23,735 nucleotides of DNA, taken from a virus. A program made the position numbers and the translations under genes. The stretch is from the IMG/VR virus record IMGVR_UViG_3300012917_000012, positions 1 to 23,735 of that record. One strand, 5' to 3'. Shown piece by piece: positions 3,067 to 11,009 of the stretch. The stretch's first letter is position 1. Each line of letters starts with the position of its first letter. The notes under the pieces were generated by a model, which saw nothing but the letters and a program-made list of their open reading frames with translations, had not been told where the DNA came from and searched no databases.

Positions 3067-5000
3067 TAATGGGTCACTTTCCAATTACTCCCTATTGTCC
3101 ACATTCGTGGATCATTGTGGTTCTCTCCATAGCTACCTGCTAATGGACACTTTAGTTTAAGTTCTACTCCTGTTTCTACTAGTGATTGACATTTTATTTC
3201 TGCTACTTGATGAGCAATCATCAAATCATTCGGTGTCTCTGTTTGCCACTCATCGTGTACGAAGTTAACTAGTTTAATAGCATACTCCTTGGGAAAGATT
3301 AAGTCAATCTTTTTCTTCCAACTTAATCTTGCTTTAGACATTATTATTTTTTCTCCCGACTGAAGATACCCAGACATAACCAAATGCCTTCTCTCGCCCA
3401 CGTCCATTCCAGGTATATTAATACGTCGTCCATCCAATCCTGTAAACCAGCCTCTACGAGCATCCCTCGGAATGGTAGTTCTTTTAAGGTAGTCGAGGCC
3501 GGTGTAACGCTCCATAAGTTTCGCAAGAGCATTTTCCGTCTGTGTTCGTTCACATCCAAGAATTTCAGAAAGTTTTCCAATTCCCGCGCCGAATAAAAAC
3601 GCATAGATGAAGCTTTTGGCAGCTGCTCTACTTCTACATATACTACCCAATATTCGCTGGTTGAGGGAGTGAGGGTCTGACTTATCTTCTTTCCGTCCTC
3701 TGACCAAGGCATTAGTAAACTCCTCATCGTCGATGTAGTGAGCAAAGATCCTAAGTTGAATTCCTTCTGCATCGACTCCCACTAACAATCTATTCTTGGG
3801 AGCAATGAATAAGGAACGCATCTCAGAACCAAGTAACTTAACCCTCCCATCTAAATAATGGCTATTAGGAATATTAGCCATGTTAGGCTTCTGATGGGCC
3901 ATCCTATGAGTCCAAGCTCCGATCGATAAAAACTGACCGTGGATACGACCCTCGGAGCTTACGAGGCCCAACCATTCCGTCAGTGTTCGTCGTCTGGACT
4001 CAAGTAGGATGCGTTTAGCCAGGGCACGTGCTGGCGCAGGAGCAGTAAAAGGTAAAGTACTTAAGTTTTCTTCGTTGATCTTCCACCCCGTCCTTTGTAA
4101 CGCCTCAAGCCTGCTTGGGAGAGTCTGTCGTTGGCGGAGGGCCTCAATGTGTGCTTTGGTTTTGACTGTTGGTTTCCAGCCAGCACTATTAAGTGTGAAA
4201 ATAATTTGTTTATGAGAACTAGGGTTGAAGTATCGGTATTCACATCTACAGAAAGAACCTCCGTTGTACTCCGATAGATCGCCACTTTTAATCCATCGGA
4301 AGTCCGATCTATTAAGAGTCCCATATTGGGTGACTCGTGGAGTGATTTCACGAATACAGTGCAAGCGAGGAGGAAAGGATCTTCCGATGTCATCATCTAG
4401 TTCCTTTAGTTCCTTGGTTACTTTCTCTAGAAGAGAAGTACACTTACCAGTGGCAAACCCAAAGCCAGTATTACTAAGCTCCAGGCAATCAGAGTAAAAC
4501 TCTTGTTCCGTGTTGATTGCGGACTTATTGCAGCTATGCTTAATGTAGCTACTGAACAGAGCATTGTAGACCAGTAAACAAAGTCGAACATCTGTTGCAC
4601 AGCGATCCTCCAGTTCTTGAGAGTATTTAGACCAGTCGGAGAATAAGTTCTTAGGAAAGTTTAGTTCTTCTCCGTAAGACTCTAGAGAGTGTCCTCCTTG
4701 TCGGGAGTAGTTGTTGAGCTTGCTAACCACAAGAGTATCAATACACCGATCACTTGTATAAGAAGATAGATTAAAATGAAGGAGATTAGAAAGGACGGGA
4801 AAATCATAACCGATAACATTGTGGCCAATCCATAGAGACACGCACTTACTAAAAACCAGAAACTTTTCTTTCTCCACGGGATCATCACTGACTCTCCTAA
4901 ATGTATATAGTTCACCAGTGTCGATATCTAGACAACAAATAACCCAGATCTTCGTGGGATTATCTTTACCATTAGCTTCAATATCAATAACTACTCGCAA
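3066..5000 (-). CDS. DNA polymerase, family A, with 3'-5' exonuclease (T7 gp5-like)
   Basis: This is the replicative polymerase. The N-terminal DnaQ-type proofreading domain shows Exo I DIE (D6, E8), Exo II GHNVIGYD (N61, D66) and a likely Exo III CATD (D137), where the usual Tyr four residues before the Asp is Arg133. The polymerase domain has motif A GVDAEGIQLR (D410), motif B R458-xxx-K462-xxx-Y466 in RAAAKSFIYAFLFGAG and motif C VHDE (D583). T7 polymerase also has Tyr at the Y466 position. At 644 residues it is somewhat shorter than T7 gp5 (704). The frame is closed by a stop directly upstream, so the only ordinary start is TTG at 5000, overlapping the preceding gene by ten bases with no clear Shine-Dalgarno site. 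Confidence 0.95.
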   Translation of the reverse strand: MRVVIDIEANGKDNPTKIWVICCLDIDTGELYTFRRVSDDPVEKEKFLVFSKCVSLWIGHNVIGYDFPVLSNLLHFNLSSYTSDRCIDTLVVSKLNNYSRQGGHSLESYGEELNFPKNLFSDWSKYSQELEDRCATDVRLCLLVYNALFSSYIKHSCNKSAINTEQEFYSDCLELSNTGFGFATGKCTSLLEKVTKELKELDDDIGRSFPPRLHCIREITPRVTQYGTLNRSDFRWIKSGDLSEYNGGSFCRCEYRYFNPSSHKQIIFTLNSAGWKPTVKTKAHIEALRQRQTLPSRLEALQRTGWKINEENLSTLPFTAPAPARALAKRILLESRRRTLTEWLGLVSSEGRIHGQFLSIGAWTHRMAHQKPNMANIPNSHYLDGRVKLLGSEMRSLFIAPKNRLLVGVDAEGIQLRIFAHYIDDEEFTNALVRGRKEDKSDPHSLNQRILGSICRSRAAAKSFIYAFLFGAGIGKLSEILGCERTQTENALAKLMERYTGLDYLKRTTIPRDARRGWFTGLDGRRINIPGMDVGERRHLVMSGYLQSGEKIIMSKARLSWKKKIDLIFPKEYAIKLVNFVHDEWQTETPNDLMIAHQVAEIKCQSLVETGVELKLKCPLAGSYGENHNDPRMWTIGSNWKVTH

Positions 5001-6754: not shown

Positions 6755-7035
6755 GCTGCCCTCGCTCGATGTTTTTTGGCTCTAGCTGTGACTGAATTAC
6801 CATGACCGTTTTCTTTCCAAGATACGAGTTGTCTTTCTTTCGCAAGACGTCTGCCTCTTTGCTTTCGAGTTAACAACGGAAGTCCATGTTCAAGCTGTTT
6901 TTCCCATCCGTCCGTGTTAACTCGCTCTTTTGTAATTTTCTTTATCTTGGTTGATGTTTGTGGACTGAGTTTTCCCATCCAAGGGGATACTTGCCCCACC
7001 GGGTCCTGAGGTTTCTTTAGTTTTTTGATTGTCAT
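6751..7035 (-). CDS. Basic hypothetical protein, 94 aa, overlapping the helicase end
   Basis: Not recognised. It is strongly basic, starting MTIKKLKKPQDPVG and ending RAKKHRARAA, with a middle segment NTDGWEKQLEHGLPLLTRKQ. It overlaps the C-terminal tail of the primase-helicase by 119 bases in another frame. GAGG six bases before its ATG and an ATGA junction with the exported protein support translation. The overlapped helicase tail is low in conserved residues, which leaves room for a second reading frame. Confidence 0.5.
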   Translation of the reverse strand: MTIKKLKKPQDPVGQVSPWMGKLSPQTSTKIKKITKERVNTDGWEKQLEHGLPLLTRKQRGRRLAKERQLVSWKENGHGNSVTARAKKHRARAA

Positions 7036-8539
7036 TACTAGCCTCTACGTAAGAATACGTGTTGGGGTTAAATAGGAGTCGACCAGCAGGTCCAGTTCGG
7101 CCACAGAATCTATTCTTTGAGATTGATATGTCTGTGGTGTTTCTGATGGTGTTATCGGCATTGGTCAAATCCCTTCTAAGGTCTATCCGAAGATCAGCAA
7201 CCTTAGCAGTATTGCGAGAGCTACGTGTTTGTTCGTTATCATTCACATGGCTACTAAAGATGAAGGAAAAATCTAGTTCTTTCACCATCATTTCTAATCG
7301 GTTGGTGAGGTAATCGAGAGCCTTCCTCTCATCTTCTCCTTGAAGACCGCTAACCCCCAGAGTAATACCATCACAGAAGATACGGCGACAGCCACGGGCA
7401 GTACGTAGAAACCGTATAGCATCCAGAAGTGTATCTGGATCCACACTCCCAAAGTGATTGTACAAGTGGTAACGGCCATCCGACGATATAGCTTTTCGGA
7501 CAGCAGCCATGATGTCAGCTTGTGAGAGATCAACTGCAGGAATGTGCGCGGGCCTATTGAGCTCAAGGCTAGCAATAGCCTGTAGATGTCTTCTTTTGGG
7601 TTCTTCGAGGAAGATGCTTGCGACATTTTCATCAGTCTCCTTTAAGAACTTATACTCAATGGCGTGCATGAACTCTGTTTTGCCCACGCCTTCCATTGCA
7701 GTAATAAGAACAGACTCCGATGTTCGGATACCATAAGTCATATCCGTTAATGTTTGCCACGGATACGGGAAACCGTACTGTAGATCAGTACTTAGTATTT
7801 CTTCGAACTCTTCAAAGGAAGAAACAATAGTATCAGGCAGGTAATTCTTGGAGTTCCACCAGATATGCTTTAACTCTGCCGTCTCACCTGCCTGTATGTA
7901 TTCATTCGGGTCTTTCCTCTTGGAGAGTTTTACTTGAAATACCCGGTTATAGTCGAAAAGCCGGGCAACTCTCCCCAGAGCTTCTTTGCCTGCTCTGTCG
8001 TTGTCAAAGCAGAGATATATTCTCTCGAAAGAGTCAACCCAGGATCGATCCAGAGCAACGTCCCCGTCTGCACTAGTACTACTACGGACGCTGACCACAG
8101 GAGAGTGGAGAGTTTGATAGAGGGATTGGGCATCTAGTTCTCCTTCACAGATAGTAACGAATTTGCTACTACCGGCCGAGAATTTATCACGACCAAATAA
8201 ACCAGCTTTAGCTATATCGCCTTCAGTTCTGAATTCCTTTTCCTCAATCTTTCTAATCTTATTTGCATTATTAGGATAAGGGAATATAATCTCAATAGGT
8301 TTACCATCACCATCGACCTTAGTCTTGGTGCCGTAGAATTGCATCGTCTCTCTTGTTACGCCACGCCAAGGAACATATTCGTATGTATATTCCTTGGTAT
8401 TGGCCGAGGTCCCATGGCGTTCACTCGGAAAATATGTTTGGCAAGAGAAACAGAATCCATGACCGTCGTCCCAAATACACTTAGCATCTGAAGAACCACA
8501 ACGGTCACAGGGAATGTGTTGTTCAATAATTGTACTCGT
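6917..8539 (-). CDS. Primase-helicase (T7 gp4/Twinkle-like), probable ACG start
   Basis: The protein synthesises primers and unwinds DNA ahead of the polymerase. Domains in order on a 540-residue reading: zinc-binding primase ribbon C11-x2-C14 and C30-x2-C33; Toprim fold with EGELDA (about 132) and CFDNDRAG (about 177-184); SF4 helicase with Walker A AMEGVGKT (K287), a Walker B-like RIFCDGIT, IFSSH and an arginine-rich end motif KNRFCGRTGPAGR. Length fits T7 gp4 (566). No ATG, GTG or TTG exists between the in-frame TAA at 8542-8540 and ATG 8344. GGAGG lies five bases before ACG (8539), which would read MSTIIEQHIPC. Starting at 8344 gives a 475-residue form without the zinc domain, like T7 gp4B. 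Confidence 0.88.
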   Translation of the reverse strand, partial: TSTIIEQHIPCDRCGSSDAKCIWDDGHGFCFSCQTYFPSERHGTSANTKEYTYEYVPWRGVTRETMQFYGTKTKVDGDGKPIEIIFPYPNNANKIRKIEEKEFRTEGDIAKAGLFGRDKFSAGSSKFVTICEGELDAQSLYQTLHSPVVSVRSSTSADGDVALDRSWVDSFERIYLCFDNDRAGKEALGRVARLFDYNRVFQVKLSKRKDPNEYIQAGETAELKHIWWNSKNYLPDTIVSSFEEFEEILSTDLQYGFPYPWQTLTDMTYGIRTSESVLITAMEGVGKTEFMHAIEYKFLKETDENVASIFLEEPKRRHLQAIASLELNRPAHIPAVDLSQADIMAAVRKAISSDGRYHLYNHFGSVDPDTLLDAIRFLRTARGCRRIFCDGITLGVSGLQGEDERKALDYLTNRLEMMVKELDFSFIFSSHVNDNEQTRSSRNTAKVADLRIDLRRDLTNADNTIRNTTDISISKNRFCGRTGPAGRLLFNPNTYSYVEASNDNQKTKETSGPGGASIPLDGKTQSTNINQDKENYKRAS

Positions 8540-9346
8540 TTAATCCTCCAGTTTGGTATAGCAATAGTATTTTCGATTAAGACTACTACGGCTGGAAATA
8601 GTCATGGGTTGAAATAAATAGCCTCCATCAATCTGTGGTTCCCAAAATTCAGGAATACCGATATACATGTAGGCTTCATCACTACGGGTTATACGTTCAA
8701 CATGACCATCGTTGTAGGTTTTTCTCAATGGCATTTCCAATGCAACACGTCTCCGTTTAAACACTTTACCATTTTCCATGAATTTGTCAAGAGAATAAAA
8801 ATGGTTAGCGGGAACGCTCCATAGTTCTCCGATGATCTTAGCCCAATGATCATACCTATTGCGGGATCTATTGTCTTCGACCCATTCGGTAGTAGTTAGT
8901 TGGTCTTTCTTGGGGAGGGCAATGATGAGCGGAGCGCTCACACAGATGGGAGGAGTCGGAAGTGGTTCTCTTTTCTTTTTAGGAAGAGACATAGTATAGG
9001 CAAAGCCGAGAAATACTCTTTCTTTCCCTCTTGTTGTAAACACTTCTTCTGGGATGCTGATTGTCCCGTGTTGGTCGTCATTTTCTTGGGTGGGGATTTC
9101 CGGGGGATCAGGCATACGTTTCCAACAATGAAACTGGGCCTCGGTGAATGCCGTGGCCACTAAAGTAGAACCACCGGAGGATAGAATATTGTGGTATTTT
9201 CTTCCTCTCTGTAAATCATCAATTACAAATAAATTATGACGGTCACAACGTGCCAACTCCGGTGCATCGGATGTGTATTCAGTCTCCTCTGCAATCTTGG
9301 CCAACCAGTCTTTGTCTATTTTCTTGCTGACGTACGGAATGTGCAT
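8540..9346 (-). CDS. Hypothetical protein, 268 aa (possible gamma-glutamylcyclotransferase-like fold)
   Basis: Not firmly recognised. The segment NLFVIDDLQRGRKYHNIL (residues about 39-56) followed by LVATAFTEAQFHCW, and later EAYMYIGIPEFWEPQIDGGY, recall the 'YGxLxxGxxNH' start and 'A-x-V/M-Y' strand of AIG2/gamma-glutamylcyclotransferase-like proteins; this is weak. The middle has proline-rich KKKREPLPTPPICVSAPLII. It overlaps the 68-residue gene by 31 bases. Its stop codon lies in the reading frame of the primase-helicase and immediately before that gene's likely ACG start. Confidence 0.6.
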   Translation of the reverse strand: MHIPYVSKKIDKDWLAKIAEETEYTSDAPELARCDRHNLFVIDDLQRGRKYHNILSSGGSTLVATAFTEAQFHCWKRMPDPPEIPTQENDDQHGTISIPEEVFTTRGKERVFLGFAYTMSLPKKKREPLPTPPICVSAPLIIALPKKDQLTTTEWVEDNRSRNRYDHWAKIIGELWSVPANHFYSLDKFMENGKVFKRRRVALEMPLRKTYNDGHVERITRSDEAYMYIGIPEFWEPQIDGGYLFQPMTISSRSSLNRKYYCYTKLED

Positions 9347-9522
9347 CGTGGTAACTCCGGATTTGAACCTAAAAATCTAACGTATTTAGTTCCACTATTA
9401 TTTATTTCGTGTTGAGGATAACCATCTCGAAGTAATGTTTGTTCGAGTGTTTCACCTGTCAGAGGTAAATATGGTTTAGGAAATCCGTATCTCCATCCAG
9501 AAGGAGGATCATATAATAACAT
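9316..9522 (-). CDS. Small conserved-looking phage protein, 68 aa
   Basis: The start MLLYDPPSGWRYGFPKPYLP, followed by TLEQTLLRDGYPQHEI, resembles small proteins I have seen beside replication genes in other phages; no function is known to me. AAAGGA precedes the ATG. It is the first gene after hairpin array 9538-9641, whose nearest stem ends about 16 bases upstream of the start. Confidence 0.6.
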   Translation of the reverse strand: MLLYDPPSGWRYGFPKPYLPLTGETLEQTLLRDGYPQHEINNSGTKYVRFLGSNPELPRCTFRTSARK

Positions 9523-9537
9523 ATTAATATCCTTTCA

Positions 9538-9641
9538 GCAACTCGCAACAAGAGTTGCAGTTAATAGTGCCCCCGACCAAGTGTGTGGTTAATGGTCGGG
9601 GGCTAGTACTCGATTGGTGTGAGGGATACAACCGAGTACTA
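9538..9641 (-). other. Three-hairpin RNA array in intergenic gap (element C)
   Basis: Three perfect stems fill the gap: GCAACTC/GAGTTGC (9538-9544/9552-9558); an 11-bp GC-rich stem GCCCCCGACCA/TGGTCGGGGGC (9569-9579/9593-9603); and TAGTACTCG/CGAGTACTA (9604-9612/9633-9641), which contains the stop codon of the 456-residue gene. None is followed by a T-run on the leftward strand, so they are not ordinary rho-independent terminators. They may protect or separate the two halves of the transcript or control the next gene. Confidence 0.65.
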
Positions 9642-11009
9642 TCTCATAGTGAATTTCTTCTGTTGGGTAATAATAGTCGGAGGCTCAGCTAATGATTTAG
9701 GAGTAGGTTCTGTGAGCGCTTCGATTGCAGCTTCTTGGCGAAAGAGAGCGTAACACAAATCACGAATTAGTTTGGAAGCAGCAGTGGGATTTTCTTTAAT
9801 CAATGTAGTACGATGCTCTTCCTTCGGTCCTCCGAATACTTTCATACCAGTTTCAAGAGTCCACCCAGTTTCATCCCAGAATGTCGGAGATGCCTTTTCA
9901 TTCTTCTCCATTTCTTCCGGAGACATAACTTGCTGAGTGTTAACGTCAATAGCGCTAACAAATTTCAACAGTTTGTCTTTCATCACATCGTTGAGGATTT
10001 GCGGTGGATCCGTAGTAGTGCTAGGCGATATGGGATCTTGAGCAGCGAGGTGTTTCGATGTACGGATGTTCCATCCTTGTTGTCTGGCATTATCAACCAT
10101 GTTCGGGAGAATAGACACCCATGGTCTGCTGTTCTTCCATCCTGGAGGTTCGTCACGTCCATGATATTTTTTGTACAAGGCTTTCATATCATTAGCCTTG
10201 ATAATATTAGCTGGCATTTGTCCTTCATACAGGACGGTGGACGAAGTGTTTGTAGTATCGTCGATCTTGTTTCCAGTTGCAGTCCTTGCAGCCGCTGCAC
10301 TCGTGCCACTCATCAACGACGTTCTTCCCTTGCGTCCAGAAGGAGGGTCAGCTTTCTTTTCCTCCCATCCACAAGTATCGTTAGTAAAACCCCATGAATA
10401 ATCATGGGAGTCTTTCGCTGCAAAGTAGACGAAACCACCATCACCTGGACACAAGATGGCAACAGAGATTTCTTTGTCATAGTTTTCGATGTCTGTTTGA
10501 AAGACTGGGCGTTTAATCTTGTCTAAGAATTTTGTAATGTCTGCCCCAGAGTCTTCCCATTTTTCTTGTATCTTGGGATTTAAATATTGATCGCAGAATA
10601 GATACGGTCGTCCTTCAGGCGAGGTGTTGGTCTCTAGTGCGGGAAATTCGCCGTCGATGAATGCCAGACACTTAGGTATAACATTGGTGCCTTCGGTATC
10701 TTCAATCAAAATGATTGGTTGAATGTTAGGATGTTCAGAGTCTTTTTCAGGATCTAGTGTTACGCTGTTAGCCTCCTTGCCGAGTATGACAATCTTATCA
10801 ACGTCTTTGTTTTCTTCCGTTTGAAGGAAACGTTTGATACCATCGGCAGTAGCACCTTCAGCGGCCATGTCGTATAGGATTTCGCCATTCTGGACGAATG
10901 CGAAACCTACCCAAGAATTATACTTGGCAGCCGCTCGGGCCAAGTAGTCGTCTGGCGGTAAGTTGCCTTTGTTGGCATAGATCAAACAAGTCCGGCTAAC
11001 AGTCGACAT
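9639..11009 (-). CDS. Hypothetical protein, 456 aa
   Basis: Not recognised. The N-terminus (RTCLIYANKGNLPPDDYLAR, then WVGFAFVQNGEILYDM) slightly recalls class II amidotransferase-type Ntn folds, but the Cys is residue 8 rather than 2, so this is only a possibility. A middle segment SVAILCPGDGGFVYFAAKD is followed by a Ser/Thr/Ala-rich linker (SLMSGTSAAAARTATG). The C-terminal 200 residues are Pro- and Lys-rich. AAAGGCG precedes the ATG by ten bases, and the membrane-protein gene ends five bases upstream, so the two are likely co-translated. Confidence 0.65.
   Translation of the reverse strand: MSTVSRTCLIYANKGNLPPDDYLARAAAKYNSWVGFAFVQNGEILYDMAAEGATADGIKRFLQTEENKDVDKIVILGKEANSVTLDPEKDSEHPNIQPIILIEDTEGTNVIPKCLAFIDGEFPALETNTSPEGRPYLFCDQYLNPKIQEKWEDSGADITKFLDKIKRPVFQTDIENYDKEISVAILCPGDGGFVYFAAKDSHDYSWGFTNDTCGWEEKKADPPSGRKGRTSLMSGTSAAAARTATGNKIDDTTNTSSTVLYEGQMPANIIKANDMKALYKKYHGRDEPPGWKNSRPWVSILPNMVDNARQQGWNIRTSKHLAAQDPISPSTTTDPPQILNDVMKDKLLKFVSAIDVNTQQVMSPEEMEKNEKASPTFWDETGWTLETGMKVFGGPKEEHRTTLIKENPTAASKLIRDLCYALFRQEAAIEALTEPTPKSLAEPPTIITQQKKFTMR

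Follow-up and report, generated by a model that had tools for sequence, protein, structure and literature searches.

Relaxation of the start codon in a clade of phage primase-helicase genes, with a probable ACG start coupled to an upstream gene

The stretch of DNA analyzed here, from an uncultured bacteriophage and hereafter called the window, comprises 23,735 nucleotides (nt) (IMG/VR record IMGVR_UViG_3300012917_000012, positions 1 to 23,735) and carries on its minus strand an open reading frame (ORF) for a primase-helicase of the T7 gp4 type, running from 8539 to 6920 with its own stop codon at 6919-6917. The protein matches the family profile phrog_239 (DNA primase/helicase) with an E-value of 2.1e-119 over residues 4-507, and the Pfam domains Toprim_2 (PF13155) and DnaB_C (PF03796) score above their cut-offs. 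The match to Zn_Ribbon_Prim at residues 6-34 is weak (17 bits vs. a cut-off of 23 bits), and the four zinc-ribbon cysteines are invariant across the 26 sequences of our alignment A1. With a match to the family profile over its whole length, a Cys4 ribbon, a Toprim domain and a DnaB-like ATPase, the window protein fits the T7 gp4 type. The features of the locus are the following.

6917-8539, minus strand: T7 gp4-type primase-helicase, read from ACG; 540 codons plus stop (phrog_239, Toprim_2, DnaB_C)
7187-7765, minus strand: DnaB-like helicase domain (PF03796, residues 259-451)
7895-8152, minus strand: Toprim domain (PF13155, residues 130-215)
8342-8344, minus strand: first in-frame ATG (Met66), candidate start of a short form; weak Shine-Dalgarno (SD) sequence (-3.5 kcal/mol), unconserved in the family
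8441-8509, minus strand: Cys4 zinc ribbon (Cys codons 11, 14, 30 and 33, invariant in alignment A1)
8457-8510, minus strand: predicted mRNA hairpin, starting 29 nt past the first base of the ACG; -26.2 kcal/mol, z about -3.1 vs. synonymous sequences
8469-8574, minus strand: junction block of 106 nt, 105 of the 106 positions identical in the window, L001 and L002
8537-8539, minus strand: ACG, the putative start codon, placed at -10 relative to the first zinc Cys, the site of ATG, GTG or TTG in relatives
8540-8542, minus strand: TAA stop codon of the upstream gene, adjoining the ACG (spacing 0)
8545-8549, minus strand: GGAGG SD motif, 5 bases before the ACG; its duplex with ACCUCCUUA amounts to -9.3 kcal/mol
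8540-9346, minus strand: upstream gene of 268 residues, AIG2-like or gamma-glutamylamine cyclotransferase-like, a conserved neighbor of the primase (PF06094 in relatives; profile and fold matches to 1vkb and 3jud)

An earlier note on this stretch, made from the letters alone, had assigned the primase-helicase to 6917-8542 and had reported no ATG, GTG or TTG between the TAA at 8542-8540 and an ATG at 8344, an intact Cys4 zinc ribbon within these 65 codons, and a GGAGG five bases from an ACG. The span is right, the ORF proper being 8539-6920, and the coordinates were confirmed on re-reading: codons 1-65 contain no ATG, GTG or TTG, the first ATG (8344-8342) is codon 66, and the GGAGG at 8549-8545 faces the ACG at 8539-8537. 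The 65 codons do encode the ribbon, with its cysteines invariant in A1 and the profile match setting in at residue 4. The full-length protein has no usable in-frame AUG, GUG or UUG, as is characteristic of genes with non-canonical starts. A run of 65 coding codons free of these triplets is by itself fairly common by chance, with 7% expected from codon frequencies and 215 of 1843 such runs observed in four ORFs of the phage. The unusual point is rather that a homologous protein begins right behind a stop codon; for most relatives, the protein alignment begins at residue 1 to 4 of the window primase.

The two nearest contigs, L001 and L002, bear different IMG/VR sample numbers and encode primases with 92 and 93% protein identity to that of the window from residue 1. 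Their junction is identical to that of the window, GGAGGATTAAACG / TGGAGGATTAAACGAGTACAAT, i.e., GGAGG-ATTAA-ACG. ACG and ATG are one C/T difference apart, as would suit an artefact of sequencing, assembly or strain mixture, and the earlier note had named reads with ATG at 8539 as refuting its reading. An exact scan of the collection permitting ACG or ATG returned two matches, L001 and L002, both with ACG, and found no ATG version. Because two other contigs with different sample numbers carry the same GGAGG-ATTAA-ACG, the ACG is not a sequencing error, and we regard an artefact of any of these kinds as very improbable. The junction block is almost invariant, compared with a three-way identity of 68% for the upstream gene and 80% for the primase. 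Among the first 23 codons, 22 encode a residue shared by the three contigs, and at 21 of these the codon itself is also identical, compared with 60% overall (428 codons; permutation p 0.0002).

Relatives were collected by a profile scan, from which the best 80 of 356 were kept (the sample thus favors near kin), by a scan of viral contigs (57 loci) and one of genome contigs (two loci), and by further scans that enlarged the set. Thirteen duplicate loci were discarded, and 102 loci scored as family members. Before the tree, nine loci were set aside because the gene was split or its N-terminus was missing (L044, L045, L046, L048, L090, L093, L172, L174 and L175), and the 93 with a usable N-terminus gave 80 representatives at 97% identity. 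Start classes were assigned by the in-frame codons ahead of the first zinc cysteine. An ATG, GTG or TTG lies at -16 to -8 from this cysteine in 48 of the 80 representatives. Another 21 have a standard codon only more than 16 codons upstream and were not counted as non-canonical, as these may be genuine extended starts. Eleven of the 80 dereplicated members are without any standard start; where relatives have their Met codon, or close to that site, they show ACG, AUU or CUG, as listed here.

Window, L001 and L002: ACG behind GGAGG
L027, L035, L037 and L051: AUU behind AAGGAG
L076: AUU with a weak SD
L083 (distant): ACG behind UUAAGGAGGA, -12.1 kcal/mol
L095: CUG behind AGGAG
L180: AUU or ACG behind AGGAG

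The ACG stands five bases from GGAGG both in the window and in the distant L083, a second instance of GGAGG-N5-ACG. Comparison of this codon among related phages, which the earlier note had recommended, places the conventional starts of most relatives where the window has its ACG, so that a conventional start elsewhere, which that note would have taken as refuting, did not turn up; L056 has the same TAA-adjacent layout with an ATG. At the Met position, L178 and L076 show TCG and TCT where their close kin L082 and L173 have TTG. One family member, L097 (JAGWGO010000178.1), lies in a 3.65-kb contig of a metagenome-assembled genome labelled Thaumarchaeota and is probably a phage contig in the bin.

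The codons found in the sister clades bear on two other explanations of the window's start. AUU is the best known near-cognate start of bacteria, and five contigs of another clade have it at the Met position behind AAGGAG, so the window protein might start at an in-frame AUU at codon 4 or 5 (8530, 8527). The SD spacing would then be 13 or more, the conserved S-T-I would be lost, and codon 4 is AUC in L001 and L002; a start at either AUU appears unlikely. We know of no C-to-U start-editing system in phages. Editing of ACG to AUG in the mRNA has been described for chloroplasts (PMC9845219), yet C-to-U editing could not turn the AUU and CUG of the sister clades into AUG, and such a solution in the window strikes us as highly implausible. 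A special initiator tRNA was also considered and rejected: the window has no tRNA gene, and the tRNAs of relatives, Leu(taa) and Ile(gat, tat), do not fit ACG. Single tRNA genes do occur near the primase in several relatives (L002:3085-3159; about 3 kb upstream in L027, L035, L037, L051 and others). No Rfam family was found at the gathering threshold.

According to the branches with good support on a quick tree, the class without a standard start requires three changes or more, a count that is provisional because a better tree was found later. Two controls limit the phenomenon. In the DNA polymerase gene of the same contigs (near position 5000 in the window), the N-terminus could be identified in 49 of the 80 representatives, and 48 of these 49 have a standard start between -8 and -3 relative to the exonuclease motif, 46 at exactly -5 and 30 of the 48 with TTG; the exception, L087, has CTG behind GGAGA. 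The absence of a standard start is thus seen in 11/80 primases vs. 1/49 polymerases (Fisher p 0.03). Among 61 distant loci (L100-L160, 26-33% identical to L083, near-copies kept), seven did not align at the N-terminus, and the 54 alignable ones all have a standard codon nearby (37 ATG, 17 GTG). As nearly all of these controls are standard, the unusual starts are a trait of this clade, and within it mainly of the primase gene. The relaxation of the start codon is clade-wide in a phage replication gene, and the finding is real and larger than first noted.

The clades without a standard start also differ in their SD sequences. Duplex energies in the six clades are -9.3, -8.0, -12.1, -7.3, -6.8 and -3.1 kcal/mol, compared with a median of -3.7 in the 48 standard-start members (one-sided Mann-Whitney p 0.0017). 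Because only 6.4% of 2080 positions within the gene reach -6.8 kcal/mol, strong SDs in five of six clades are not expected (binomial 6e-6, or 1.6e-4 with the standard-class rate of 6/48). They agree with the reported compensation of weak starts by the SD (PMC5622118). We found no unusual local fold in the leader around the SD of the window, where SD and ACG are only partly paired.

The upstream gene (9346-8540) ends in the primase frame at the TAA at 8542-8540, as the earlier note had stated. Its product evolves fast, with identities of 70% for L001 and 68% for L002, and a search with this protein alone gave no result. PF06094 (AIG2-like gamma-glutamyl cyclotransferase) is matched by 20 of 47 aligned upstream copies, that of the window not among them. 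A profile search returned 1vkb, 2kl2 and 3jud, and the AlphaFold model (mean predicted local distance difference test score of 84.9) gave 1vkb and 3jud as first Foldseek matches with modest template-modeling scores; for 1vkb, the E-value is 1.4e-4 but the score by query only 0.36. A GC-rich hairpin at 9569-9603 (GCCCCCGACC...GGTCGGGGGC), ahead of a small ORF and the AIG2-like gene, is a possible terminator or processing site; L001 has it too, and L002 has an altered version. When 8300-9700 was scanned for promoters and terminators, the numbers did not differ from those of shuffled sequence.

With the upstream ORF chosen mechanically as the longest, the spacing from start to upstream stop is -35 to 0 in all 11 members without a standard start, the window having 0, and -59 to 0 in 41 of the 43 standard-start members with a measurable upstream ORF, the other two having +12 and +21. 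The window thus has the spacing of coupled pairs, in which the start overlaps the upstream stop or is no more than about 25 nt away from it. Because the primase start overlaps or abuts the upstream stop almost throughout, coupled initiation at the ACG is the best reading. The earlier note had also considered readthrough of the TAA, which would yield an AIG2-like/primase fusion protein, and the two genes do share a frame in the window, L001 and L002. In the other clades lacking a standard start, however, the upstream gene lies in another frame with an overlap of 13-35 nt, and a fusion would need a different recoding each time, which argues against readthrough or frameshifting as a common mechanism. 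The trio moreover conserves TAA, not TAG or TGA. Readthrough therefore found little support and seems quite improbable.

Five features are directly observed: standard starts are missing in a conserved manner, a near-cognate codon occupies the Met position, the SD is strong, the genes overlap or abut, and the junction is conserved. We propose that the primase-helicase is probably initiated with formylmethionine at the ACG at 8539-8537, coupled to the upstream gene. A ribosome finishing the AIG2-like gene would stop at the TAA with the GGAGG within reach of the anti-Shine-Dalgarno and the ACG adjoining the stop. The near-cognate codon would then suffice for reinitiation or coupled new initiation, giving Met-STIIEQHIPC. 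The N-terminus STIIEQHIPC after Met removal, as the earlier note had predicted, is supported by the junction kept in L001 and L002, the ACG at the ATG site of the relatives and the parallel in L083. The weak codon might hold down the amount of the replicative enzyme and make it depend on translation of the neighboring gene, possibly also on the level of IF3. We infer the use of the ACG, the coupling, a low yield and any regulation from the features listed above. That every start option considered would limit the long form, as the earlier note held, is plausible. In E. coli, reinitiation uses the initiator tRNA, IF2 and IF3, and excess IF3 lowers reinitiation, less so with an SD (PMC2268962).

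Several points weigh against this proposal. The SD of L076 is weak, and the near-cognate codon and spacing in each clade without a standard start were picked by hand, which weakens the SD statistics. In E. coli, the initiation rate of near-cognate codons is roughly one percent of that of AUG, or lower; Hecht reportedly surveyed all 64 codons there in 2017. The window trio and L083 are perhaps one clade (support about 42), and a clade of the trio with the AUU group was not rejected (approximately unbiased test, p-AU 0.956), so that the ACG and AUU cases may share one origin. Part of the junction conservation, too, can stem from the protein and the hairpin rather than from the start.

The alternative that only a gp4B-like protein is made from the ATG at 8344 (Met66), the zinc-ribbon codons being a relic or separately made, draws on the retention of this ATG in L001 and L002 and on three members with a split primase. 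In L172 (4000-4200), L174 and L175, a small ORF of its own encodes the zinc ribbon. The Toprim-helicase ORF is in a different frame and has a GTG start behind AAGGAG that overlaps the stop of the zinc-ribbon ORF; a zinc-less form exists in this sister lineage. Against the alternative stand the invariance of all four cysteines in A1 and the high identity of L001 and L002 from the first residue onward. Residue 66 is Phe in 52 of the 80 representatives and Met in 17, and the SDs before this ATG are weak (-3.5, -1.5 and -4.7 kcal/mol in the trio). The gp4B-like start put forward earlier hence has little support as a conserved feature, and exclusive production of the short form is improbable.

The zinc-ribbon codons also harbor the predicted hairpin. 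Across the family, the structure from the first Cys codon onward exceeds synonymous sequences in stability (78 representatives, mean z -2.63, 69% below -2), compared with mean z between -1.50 and +0.21 in the other 38 segments along the gene. As it is equally strong with a standard start (mean z -2.29, n = 11, without vs. -2.56, n = 68, in the other members; p 0.88), the hairpin is not a compensation for the start codon. The protein motif itself accounts for much of its complementarity. The hairpin occurs in two main registers, defined by sight, with 19 of 72 sequences, the window included, in neither. Synonymous pairing reaches 0.790 vs. 0.743 permuted in one register (29 sequences) and 0.692 vs. 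0.667 in the other (24 sequences); codons were permuted among sequences with the same residue, and neither value was attained in 2000 permutations, an excess in which relatedness may still have a share. RNAalifold over all 72 sequences of alignment A2, from which seven members with insertions had been left out, found no common structure, covariation being confined to the two register classes. Distant relatives show no hairpin excess in the 12 of 64 matched by the zinc pattern (mean z 0.35), and the 5' end of the DNA polymerase gene has a weaker folding excess (mean z -1.62, n = 42).

Ribosome termination structures (RTS), stable mRNA structures downstream of stop codons, are described in the excerpted text of PMC7518266 as inhibiting reinitiation and as depleted where genes are less than 25 nt apart. 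The hairpin resembles them in following a stop codon. RTS are centered a few nt after the stop, whereas the window's stem begins 30 nt after the last TAA base, and the family structure occurs where genes overlap, 29-39 nt downstream of the start and inside the coding sequence; it lies nearer the stop in members with overlapping stops. Because the reported RTS, lying nearer the stop, are said to inhibit reinitiation, the hairpin might by analogy act as a brake on primase translation.

Phage T7 gene 4, which makes a long and a short form (gp4A/gp4B), likewise encodes a single chain with zinc ribbon, Toprim and DnaB-type helicase. The start of gene 4A is AUG, in contrast to that of the window primase, whose internal Met66 is not typical of the family. 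Starts that are conserved as non-AUG/GUG/UUG codons and likely act as expression brakes are known from infC (AUU) and Streptomyces sigR (GTC), both repressed by IF3 (PMC5472188). Those are host genes with experimental proof, whereas here ACG, AUU and CUG are found in one family of a phage replication gene, from sequence alone. Translational coupling and termination-reinitiation are described for trpE-trpD, galT-galK and M13, and coupled genes are closely spaced (excerpts of PMC12548453, PMC6728339 and PMC2268962 for the former, PMC12548453 for the latter). As in the window, stop and start overlap or abut there, with the SD inside the upstream gene, but the coupled starts described in these excerpts are standard codons, and the window junction is near-cognate. 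Experimentally characterized bacterial starts other than AUG, GUG and UUG are very few, and start prediction presumes only those three (PMC5472188). Our search of the open-licence PMC literature found no report of a phage primase, or of any phage gene, with an ACG, AUU or CUG start. The parts, i.e., non-canonical start, coupling and SD compensation, are known; their recurring combination in a phage replication gene was not found described.

A bolder interpretation, which we offer only tentatively and hold to be doubtful, is a dedicated translational gate on the primase-helicase, consisting of a start placed over the stop of a cyclotransferase-like gene, a codon drifting to ACG, AUU or CUG, and a conserved hairpin metering ribosomes. 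The codon may drift if a strong SD leaves reinitiating ribosomes with little need of AUG. Such a gate would make replication depend on IF3 as well as on translation of the neighbor, and the proportion of zinc-bearing to zinc-less helicase could also be set by it.

With standard-start relatives serving as natural controls, this family makes the importance of the start codon in coupled genes directly testable. The predicted N-termini of such primases, including the zinc ribbon, may often be wrong. The unusual start codons suggest that these viruses hold back production of their primase.

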